A program made the translations under genes and the position numbers. A DNA stretch of 36,140 nucleotides, from assembly GCA_947458335.1 (NCBI GenBank), contig CANGYW010000005.1, positions 1 through 36,140 on the forward strand, in the 5' to 3' direction. This document shows positions 1-28,030 of the stretch, in pieces. Position 1 is the stretch's first letter, and the number at the start of each line of letters is the position of its first letter. Source of the stretch: Chitinophagaceae bacterium. Lineage in GTDB: Bacteria; Bacteroidota; Bacteroidia; Chitinophagales; Chitinophagaceae. A model generated the notes under the pieces. It saw nothing but the letters and a program-made list of their open reading frames with translations, did not search any database and was not told the origin of the DNA.

Positions 1-459
1 GGCAAAACGCAACTTATTAATCATTTCGAGGTGGTAGGTACCGATAAAAAAAAATGGTACCTAGTTGACTTGCCCGGCTATGGCTATGCAGCCACCGTAT
101 CGCAAAAAGCTCGTAACAATTGGGGCAATATGATCGAATCATATATCCGTAAACGTGAGAACCTGGTTTCTTTATTCGTGCTCATCGACAGCCGCCATAC
201 ACCTCAGGCAATCGACCTTGAATTTATTAGACAACTTGGACAGTGGCAGGTGCCGTTTTCTATCATCTTTACCAAGACCGATAAGAATAAGCCCGGCGCC
301 ACTGTTCGTAATGTAGAGACGTTTAAAAAGGCGCTCTTGGAGGAGTGGCAATCGTTGCCACCTTTATTTTTGACCTCTGCTGAAAAAAGGGAGGGAAGAG
401 AAGAATTGTTATTTCATATCTGTTCGCTACACGATACGTTCACTGCTCCAAAACGCTAG
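1..459 (+). CDS. engB: Ribosome biogenesis GTP-binding protein EngB/YsxC (5' end outside window)
   Basis: GTPase of the TrmE-Era-EngA-EngB group that assists large ribosomal subunit assembly. The frame is open from base 1 and starts with GKTQLINHF, the end of the P-loop, so the N-terminus lies outside the window; the GTG at 31 in the ORF track is not the real start. The G3 motif appears as DLPGYGYA, a diagnostic EngB sequence, and G4 as TKTD. The C-terminus SAEKREGREEL resembles the G5 SA(K) region. The visible part is 152 residues of a protein usually near 200. A run of nine A residues encodes three lysines at bases 46-54. It converges on the YkuK-family gene with a 48-base gap. Identification is firm from G3 plus G4. 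Confidence 0.93.
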   Translation, partial: GKTQLINHFEVVGTDKKKWYLVDLPGYGYAATVSQKARNNWGNMIESYIRKRENLVSLFVLIDSRHTPQAIDLEFIRQLGQWQVPFSIIFTKTDKNKPGATVRNVETFKKALLEEWQSLPPLFLTSAEKREGREELLFHICSLHDTFTAPKR

Positions 460-3254: not shown

Positions 3255-5066
3255 TCAGTAATCCAGCTCAAGCCGAAGCCGGTCCTTTAGTTCCTGTACC
3301 AGCGGATATTGTTTGACTATTTCCTGAAATTGTTCTTTACTGCTCAGCATTCCTTCGGACGGGGATTGTTGGCCTGCTGGCTCTTCTACCAGCACGGTAA
3401 ATTTGAGGCCACTGACCTGCAGATGTTGCTGCAAAAACTGAAAAAGGGAGTTGCGTTCTTGTTCAATGAACTTTTGCTCAATGTTATTGGCGGTAATCAC
3501 CTCAAAGCTATTGCCATCACTAATGCGTAACTGCGCTGCTTCGAAGGGTTGAGCCGCAGGGTTGCGTTGCTGACGAAGTTGTTCCGTATACTGCGACCAT
3601 ACGGTGGTTAGCGTGGCAGCGTCAAGGGTATTATCTGTGGGTTTGTTGGTGTTGCCAGTACGCTTGAATTGCTGCCTGATTTGCTCGAGGGCACTTAGCC
3701 GGGGTGTTTCGATGGTCAGCCGCGCTGCAGGCTCTTCGCTAATGGGTACTGTAATTTGCGAGGTATCGGGAACCGTAGCAGCAGAGGCCGAACTTTCTAA
3801 TTTAGCAGGAGCTTTAGGGGGTTGGGGTATAGCCGAGGTAGAGCGAGGAGTCGACGCTTGGGGGTGGGTTGTAATACCGGTATACAATCGTATAGGCGTA
3901 GTTCTGAACCCCAGCGGCGCGTCAGCTATTTTTTTTTTGACCAGCCCCGATCCGTCGGTAGCCACCGAGAGGGCTTGTTGCAGATAGGCTAGTTTGATGA
4001 GTGCCATTTCTACATGTAATCGCTTGTTGCGGGCCGCTCGGTAATTGATCTCGGCTTCACTGATAATATTGAGGGCACTCACCAGGTAAGCGGCACCAGT
4101 GGTAGAGGCCGTTTGTACATATTGCTCTTTAAAATGCTCGACCGTGTCGAGTAAAACTGCCGCTTGTTTGTCTTTGCACACTAAGAGGTTTCTAAAAAAT
4201 TCTGCCAGCCCATTGAGTACCAGATCACCCTCGAATCCTTTTCGATTAATCTCATCGTAAAGCAAGATCATCCCGCTCAGATCTTGTTGCTGCATCATGG
4301 CAAGTAGCCGAAAGTAATAGTCTGCATCCAATATATTCAAGTGCTCCAGCGTGGTGGCGTACAGTAAATTTCCATTGGAAAAACTCACGATCTTATCGAG
4401 CATGCTTAGTGCATCTCGCAGACAGCCCTCGCTTTTTTGAGCAATCAACTGTAGCGCAGGTCTTTCGGCATTTACTTTTTCTTCTTTACAGATCTTTTGC
4501 AGGTGGGCCACCGTATCGTCGGTGGTGATGCGCTTAAAATCAAAGAGCTGGCAACGGCTCAGGATAGTGGGTAAAATCTTGTGCTTTTCGGTCGTAGCCA
4601 AAATAAAGATGGCATACGAAGGAGGTTCTTCGAGGGTTTTTAAAAAGGCATTGAAGGCCTGTTGAGAAAGCATGTGTACCTCATCGATTACATACACTTT
4701 ATAACGACCGGCTTGTGGGGCAAATCGTACTTGCTCGGTAAGTTGCCGAATGTCATCTACCGAGTTATTCGAGGCTGCATCGAGTTCAAAATAATTAAGA
4801 GAGGTTCCTTCGTTGAAAGAAGTACAGCTACTGCAGGTGTTACAAGCTTCGCCTTGGGCGGTGAGTTTTTCGCAGTTAATCGTTTTGGCGAGAATTCGTG
4901 CACAGGTAGTCTTTCCGACACCACGGGGTCCGCAAAATAAAAATGCATGCGCCAGCTGCTGATTTCGTATTGCATTTTTGAGCGTAGTGGTAATATGGTC
5001 TTGACCCAGTACGCTGTCGAACTGTTGTGGTCTGTACTTACGGGCCGAAACAATAAACCTCTCCAT
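3255..5066 (-). CDS. dnaX: DNA polymerase III subunit tau/gamma
   Basis: Clamp-loader ATPase subunit, 603 residues. Walker A GPRGVGKT at 46-53, a four-cysteine zinc site (C65, C75, C78, C81), Walker B VIDEVHML with D128-E129, and the SRC arginine-finger motif at 170-172. Domains I-III run to about 375; after that comes a low-complexity Pro/Ala/Thr/Ser linker and a tau-type C-terminal part (about 470-603). Exactly at the domain III boundary the codons for K377-K379 and the first base of I380 form a run of ten A residues; slippage in either direction gives a stop at once (see separate entry), so both tau (603 aa) and gamma (about 380 aa) may be made. The GNAT-like gene lies upstream, with a 66-base gap and a degenerate -7 box just before the ATG. 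Confidence 0.95.
   Translation of the reverse strand: MERFIVSARKYRPQQFDSVLGQDHITTTLKNAIRNQQLAHAFLFCGPRGVGKTTCARILAKTINCEKLTAQGEACNTCSSCTSFNEGTSLNYFELDAASNNSVDDIRQLTEQVRFAPQAGRYKVYVIDEVHMLSQQAFNAFLKTLEEPPSYAIFILATTEKHKILPTILSRCQLFDFKRITTDDTVAHLQKICKEEKVNAERPALQLIAQKSEGCLRDALSMLDKIVSFSNGNLLYATTLEHLNILDADYYFRLLAMMQQQDLSGMILLYDEINRKGFEGDLVLNGLAEFFRNLLVCKDKQAAVLLDTVEHFKEQYVQTASTTGAAYLVSALNIISEAEINYRAARNKRLHVEMALIKLAYLQQALSVATDGSGLVKKKIADAPLGFRTTPIRLYTGITTHPQASTPRSTSAIPQPPKAPAKLESSASAATVPDTSQITVPISEEPAARLTIETPRLSALEQIRQQFKRTGNTNKPTDNTLDAATLTTVWSQYTEQLRQQRNPAAQPFEAAQLRISDGNSFEVITANNIEQKFIEQERNSLFQFLQQHLQVSGLKFTVLVEEPAGQQSPSEGMLSSKEQFQEIVKQYPLVQELKDRLRLELDY
3929..3938 (-). promoter_or_regulatory. Candidate slippage site (A10) in dnaX for gamma production
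   Basis: The coding strand reads GTC followed by ten A residues, then TAGCTGA. In frame this encodes V-K-K-K-I-A-D. With nine A the reading becomes AAA AAA AAA TAG (379-residue product); with eleven it becomes AAA AAA AAA AAT AGC TGA (381 residues). Thermus thermophilus dnaX is known to make gamma by transcriptional slippage at a run of nine A; E. coli uses a ribosomal frameshift at A AAA AAG. I see no clear Shine-Dalgarno-like stimulator or strong hairpin here, which favours transcriptional slippage. Confidence 0.6.
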
Positions 5067-27999: not shown

Positions 28000-28030
28000 C
28001 CTCCCGGTGTAAGCCGGGAGGTTTTTTTTT
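28000..28030 (+). terminator. Intrinsic terminator of the dcw cluster
   Basis: CCTCCCGG and CCGGGAGG form a perfect 8-bp GC-rich stem with a six-base loop (TGTAAG), followed directly by nine T residues. It lies 48 bases after the ftsZ stop, and is the only strong intrinsic terminator I see in the window. Confidence 0.92.

Follow-up and report, generated by a model that had tools for sequence, protein, structure and literature searches.

A ten-adenine tract conserved in Bacteroidia dnaX as a predicted transcriptional slippage site around which the tau reading frame has repeatedly switched

The dnaX gene of a Chitinophagaceae bacterium carries a run of ten adenines (A10) immediately after the part that encodes clamp-loader domain III, with a stop codon next to it in each of the two shifted frames. 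We consider it likely that this run is a programmed slippage site by which one dnaX gene would supply both clamp-loader forms, tau and gamma, a confidence that counts slippage acting alone and slippage acting together with ribosomal shifting alike. The tract and its two stops are conserved among relatives, and across the class Bacteroidia the frame that encodes tau has switched repeatedly around a tract of 9-11 A's. The comparisons with near relatives, with class genomes and with a second A run in the same stretch of DNA argue that the tract is maintained by selection. The stretch analyzed, referred to as the window, comprises 36,140 nucleotides (contig CANGYW010000005.1, positions 1 to 36,140), and its dnaX features are as follows:

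3255..5066, minus strand: dnaX, gamma/tau subunit of DNA polymerase III, the complete tau ORF being 603 aa (ORF call, Pfam, E. coli tau structures with E 7.9e-71)
3930..5066, minus strand: segment common to tau and the predicted gamma, codons 1-379 (frame reading)
3975..4331, minus strand: clamp-loader domain III, DNA_pol3_gamma3, residues 246-364 (Pfam)
3929..3938, minus strand: A10 tract, the candidate slippery site, codons 377-379 and the first base of codon 380 (sequence, conservation, sole run of ten or more A's in the assembly)
3926..3928, minus strand: stop codon TAG of the +1 frame, 0 nt from the tract, to which losing one A or gaining two would lead
3922..3924, minus strand: stop codon TGA of the -1 frame, 4 nt from the tract, to which gaining one A, losing two or a ribosomal shift by -1 would lead
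3255..3929, minus strand: tau-specific linker and C-terminal part, absent from the predicted gamma (sequence and ORF, C-terminal homology across relatives)

On the minus strand the dnaX frame runs through the site as GGG CTG GTC AAA AAA AAA ATA GCT GAC; the run appears on the plus strand as T10 at 3929-3938, and the bases following it on the minus strand are TAGCTGA. The first-pass annotation had described codons 377-380 as GTC-A10-TAGCTGA, with TAG and TGA closing both shifted frames, and the sequence confirms this description. It had placed the site at 3927-3940, an interval that does contain the run but also takes in flanking bases, the run proper being 3929-3938. Removing one A (or adding two) gives KKK-TAG and a product of 379 aa and 42.6 kDa, while adding one A (or removing two) gives KKKNS-TGA and a product of 381 aa and 42.8 kDa; the shifted products therefore measure 379-381 aa and about 42.6-42.8 kDa, against 67.6 kDa for tau (all masses computed). 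Pfam ends domain III (residues 246-364) near residue 364, placing the tract just beyond it, and E. coli gamma structures align as far as DnaX residue 359. Accordingly, the shifted products keep the whole clamp-loader core and little else, in agreement with the earlier claim that they end where domains I-III end. The window gene thereby presents the arrangement of the Thermus type, namely an A tract of at least nine in the linker after domain III (A10, codons 377-380), nearby stops in both shifted frames (at 0 nt and 4 nt) and tau in one 603-aa ORF. The two-ORF arrangement, in which the zero frame ends at the tract, is not that of the window, where tau is in frame.

The run stands out within its genome. 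As had been noted, it is the longest homopolymer of the window, the next being A9 at 46-54 and T9 at 28022-28030. Searching both strands of the window's assembly (1,731,308 bases) for A9 gave 32 places, with dnaX alone reaching ten, and in four relatives (G002, G006, G007 and G016) the sole run of ten or more A's per whole assembly likewise lies in dnaX. The paired stops had been judged unlikely to be accidental, a judgment that holds: only 2% of control positions in the same linkers have both shifted frames closed within 5 nt.

We then compared the site among near relatives, using dnaX genes of same-genus genomes together with those from a scan of named genomes, which left 53 Chitinophagaceae-type genes once near duplicates were removed. 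A tract of A9-A11 was present at the same codon in 49 of these (A9 in 28, A10 in 16 and A11 in five), the remaining four having A8, A7, A6 and none. The first-pass annotation had proposed asking whether relatives encode the same lysines with AAG; run on these genes, this check showed that the lysines are not broken up by AAG. Lysine codons at the site number 148 AAA against 7 AAG, while AAA averages 69% of lysine codons elsewhere in the same genes. Under each gene's own usage this excess has a probability of ~10^-23 if lineages are taken as independent, which they are not fully, making the figure indicative only. The flanking stops are kept as well: 96% of near relatives have a stop in the -1 frame no more than 8 nt away (22% of controls), and both shifted frames are closed within 15 nt in 78% (8% of controls), the controls here being positions in linkers of the same genes, whose composition may differ from that of the site. 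The exact unit A10-TAGCTGA is common to the nearest lineages, at 76-88% protein identity. Two Chitinophagaceae-type genes without a long tract, L052 (at codon 372) and L060 (at codon 377), contain an in-frame A_AAA_AAG with a -1 TGA 6 nt further on; judging from their sequences, these may represent a move from transcriptional slippage to ribosomal frameshifting of the E. coli type.

A second A run in the window served as an internal control. The gene engB, which encodes a ribosome-biogenesis GTPase, has an A9 run at 46-54 (plus strand) coding for KKK. In 29 relatives this run is never A9; it is A8 in two, and in the others it is interrupted by AAG or other codons, indicating that long A runs are readily lost where no purpose maintains them. 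If slippage is indeed efficient in this host, some EngB should be lost at this A9. The engB gene is partial at the window start, and its first 49 codons (window 1-149) are also found at the end of contig C15 (G000:C15:3-149) with 100% identical protein, so the contig break falls inside engB and the two contigs overlap.

For the wider survey, genomes were sampled evenly across the class and the phylum; this yielded 180 dnaX regions, in each of which the frame was read around the longest A run. The class, here called Bacteroidia on the ground that the nearest named relatives of the window are Chitinophagaceae, is represented by 140 genomes from 59 families. A run of nine or more A's was found in 121 of the 140 class genomes (86%), representing 51 of the 59 families. 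Tract lengths were sharply distributed (nine in 20 genes, ten in 89, eleven in 11 and twelve in one), with none at eight and the rest at 0-7. Among the 121 tracts all three codon phases are occupied (81/22/18), implying that it is homopolymer length that is kept rather than a framed heptamer. Both shifted frames are closed within 15 nt in 71% of class genes with tau in frame, as opposed to 12% at control positions, and the -1 stop is more tightly constrained than the +1 stop (within 15 nt in 99% versus 72%). The tract is missing from ~14% of class genomes. It has been lost, with tau kept in frame, in L163, L166 and L177 (f77), L149, L155 and L168 (f87), L223 and L226 (f92) and parts of f73 and f68; in such families and genomes gamma would be either dispensable or made another way. 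Within one family, L138 (G235) has A7 and L140 (G266) A10 in surroundings that are otherwise nearly the same; three A's have dropped out without a change of frame, which, going by the sequence, would leave L138 with tau only.

Tau is read in the zero frame, as in the window, in 83 of the 121 tract-bearing class genes. In the other 38, from 20 families, gamma is in frame, the zero frame ending within a few codons of the tract, and tau lies in the -1 frame in 34 and in the +1 frame in four. With one gene from the named genomes, L070, those with tau in the +1 frame number five (the others being L154, L182, L211 and L241), and all 39 Chryseobacterium loci are of the gamma-in-frame form. When a tau C-terminus profile built from in-frame genes was compared with 48 gamma-in-frame genes (the 38 of the class and 10 from other classes), the shifted frame matched it in 47, indicating that these genes are not degraded. 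A FastTree phylogeny built from 251 sequences of DnaX (residues 1-350) requires no fewer than 27 changes of tau frame, compared with about 50 when labels are shuffled, and no fewer than 22 changes in tract presence. Among the closest pairs with unlike frames, most have exactly A10 on both sides and differ in flanking indels, and one family, f21, includes all three frame states. Single-base assembly errors could fake some of these switches (e.g., L268/L271, with A9 and A10 at a distance of 0.01), though not the whole pattern. A G directly follows the tract in 26 of the 34 genes with tau in the -1 frame and in 28 of the 83 with tau in frame (L110-L249), an excess that may stem from shared descent or from an influence on slippage.

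The observations fit a process by which a long A tract populates every frame irrespective of codon phase, and this favors slippage at transcription, as in Thermus. RNA polymerase transcribing the T10 template would realign the A:T hybrid, producing mRNAs with 9, 10, 11, 12 or more A's. Transcripts that are unshifted or differ by three would be translated into tau (603 aa), while those with one A more or less would run directly into TGA or TAG and give gamma (379-381 aa), which would keep domains I-III, responsible for ATPase activity and oligomerization, and be without the tail that tethers polymerase and helicase. The RNA:DNA hybrid is 8-9 bp long, which fits a lower edge of tract length at nine, where the hybrid could realign fully. 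Nine is also the length at which slippage by bacterial RNA polymerase is described (PMC1088944, PMC5009743). Shifts in both directions, moreover, occur here within one gene family, and such a pattern is what Antonov et al. take as the criterion for transcriptional realignment (PMC3711429). The length threshold of nine, the use of all codon phases, the stops in both frames and the relatives with tau in the -1 or +1 frame thus lend comparative support to the original proposal that this organism makes gamma by slippage. What the sequences show directly is the tract, its two stops and their conservation, the domain boundary and the switching of the tau frame; slippage at the level of transcription, how efficient it is, and a gamma that accumulates and functions are inferred.

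The same two products could be envisioned to arise at the ribosome, by programmed -1 frameshifting at an A_AAA_AAA within a faithfully transcribed tract, in a manner resembling E. coli. The window does contain a zero-frame A_AAA_AAA, and a -1 shift upon it would end at the same TGA; across the class the -1 stop is the more constrained of the two and gamma-in-frame genes mostly have tau in the -1 frame, and L052 and L060 retain their A_AAA_AAG and -1 stop despite having no long tract. However, insertion-biased slippage would account for the stop constraint and for tau lying more often in -1 than in +1, as would -1 ribosomal frameshifting, and other observations speak against the latter as sole mechanism. 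Seven A's would be enough for it, yet tract length is held at 9-11, and the five genes with tau in the +1 frame require a shift in the other direction. The efficient heptamer A_AAA_AAG is absent from the zero frame of the window (AAA AAA AAA ATA offers A_AAA_AAA only) and is in frame in only 30 of the 121 tract-bearing class genes, and was thus rejected as the real signal. Nor is a downstream stem-loop supported in the window: a 65-nt fold is no better than its shuffles (z +0.74), a longer stem in a 139-nt fold (z -2.18) was discarded since its GGCTAT pairing segment is absent in the 88%-identical L031 and others, and an Rfam search returned chance-level matches only. Upstream of the tract the window reads GACGGATCGGGGCTGGTC, without GGAG or AGGA; for a Shine-Dalgarno stimulator the class gave only a slight excess of 4-base Shine-Dalgarno-like cores upstream of its sites (17%, versus 9% of controls). 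Taken together, we regard ribosomal frameshifting alone as an improbable source of gamma. Class-wide, RNA downstream of the tract folds slightly more strongly than that of controls (mean z -0.54 versus -0.15), and along with the slight enrichment of Shine-Dalgarno-like cores this means that ribosomal shifting may contribute in some lineages. A combined scheme, in which slippage by RNA polymerase supplies every frame and the A-rich codons make ribosomes slip by -1 as well, is accommodated by the same sequence, by the -1 bias in stops and tau frame, and by the precedent that mechanism can differ between dnaX orthologues (Antonov et al., PMC3711429); as nothing observed here requires the second mechanism, we deem it unlikely, if worth bearing in mind.

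Explanations that give the tract no role in making two proteins fare considerably worse. That the lysine run is accidental, or the tract a mutational hot spot or an artefact of assembly, might be suspected given that homopolymer lengths are error-prone in assemblies and that this is a draft genome of 134 contigs. Yet the tract is conserved in many independent genomes, the 39 Chryseobacterium loci and further isolate records among them; synonymous sites retain AAA; both shifted frames are enriched in stops; and relatives interrupt the engB A9 found in this window with AAG or other codons. On the AAA bias, stop enrichment and engB control we reject the chance run, and we find this whole group of explanations almost impossible to credit. 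Alternatively, the tract might be a phase-variation switch, with replication slippage turning tau on and off within the population, as homopolymers are hypermutable and the frame has often switched in evolution. Against this, an essential role is expected of tau, the tract varies little in length (9-11), the stops are so placed that shifted products are a domain-complete gamma, and the switches mostly alter the flanks while the tract stays A10, making such a role very improbable.

Returning to transcriptional slippage, we lean, with moderate confidence, toward a broader reading in which slippage at Bacteroidia dnaX has such strength and age that the gene's tau-specific third is now nearly free to drift between frames 0, -1 and +1, and selection holds only the A tract, at 9-11; in roughly one tract-bearing lineage out of three, the tau of the replisome would then come only from transcripts that differ from the genome in length. 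The preservation of a two-form capacity through dozens of frame changes bears on the disputed role of gamma, and the lineages provide natural replicates (frames 0, -1 and +1, tract lost, A_AAA_AAG instead) for testing clamp-loader composition. On the practical side, gene calling that is blind to the shift would make roughly one in three tract-bearing dnaX genes look split or truncated.

The mechanism itself is already known, and the class-wide pattern is more interesting than the window gene. A 2012 review considered that most bacteria beyond enterobacteria and Thermus are without dnaX frameshift signatures and may not make gamma (PMC3290774), a view to be set against the 86% of sampled Bacteroidia genomes that keep the site. 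Within the open-access literature, which was partially covered, we found nothing on dnaX slippage in Bacteroidota or Flavobacterium beyond the papers cited here, and no paper on a Bacteroidia-wide site, on +1-frame forms or on repeated switching; the class-wide spread and repeated frame switching exceed the published cases found. Some Chlorobium dnaX cases are mentioned in PMC3711429 and PMC5009743.

The closest known system is the dnaX of Thermus thermophilus, in which transcriptional slippage at an A9 run yields gamma from length-shifted mRNA (Larsen et al. 2000, as cited in PMC1088944 and PMC5009743; also in PMC3711429). The window gene shares with it tau in one ORF, an A tract after domain III and adjacent stops in both shifted frames, with the route to gamma being predicted here; it differs in having A10 rather than A9, in its Bacteroidota host, in having relatives with tau in any of the three frames, and in being known from sequence. 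Antonov et al. (2013) described two-ORF dnaX in 17 genes of 12 genera, nine of them with 10 A's, in which tau needs a -1 shift and transcriptional realignment was proposed (PMC3711429). A10 occupies the same gene position in the window, and the two-ORF form is present in 34 of the 140 class genomes and all 39 Chryseobacterium loci; in contrast to those genes, tau occupies the zero frame in the window, and beyond them +1 versions exist and the 59-family survey shows repeated switching. With E. coli dnaX, a case of -1 programmed ribosomal frameshifting, the gene has in common the same two products (gamma being predicted), an A-rich shift site past domain III and an immediate -1 stop, but the window has no A_AAA_AAG, clear Shine-Dalgarno-like element or supported stem-loop, and a second stop guards its +1 frame.
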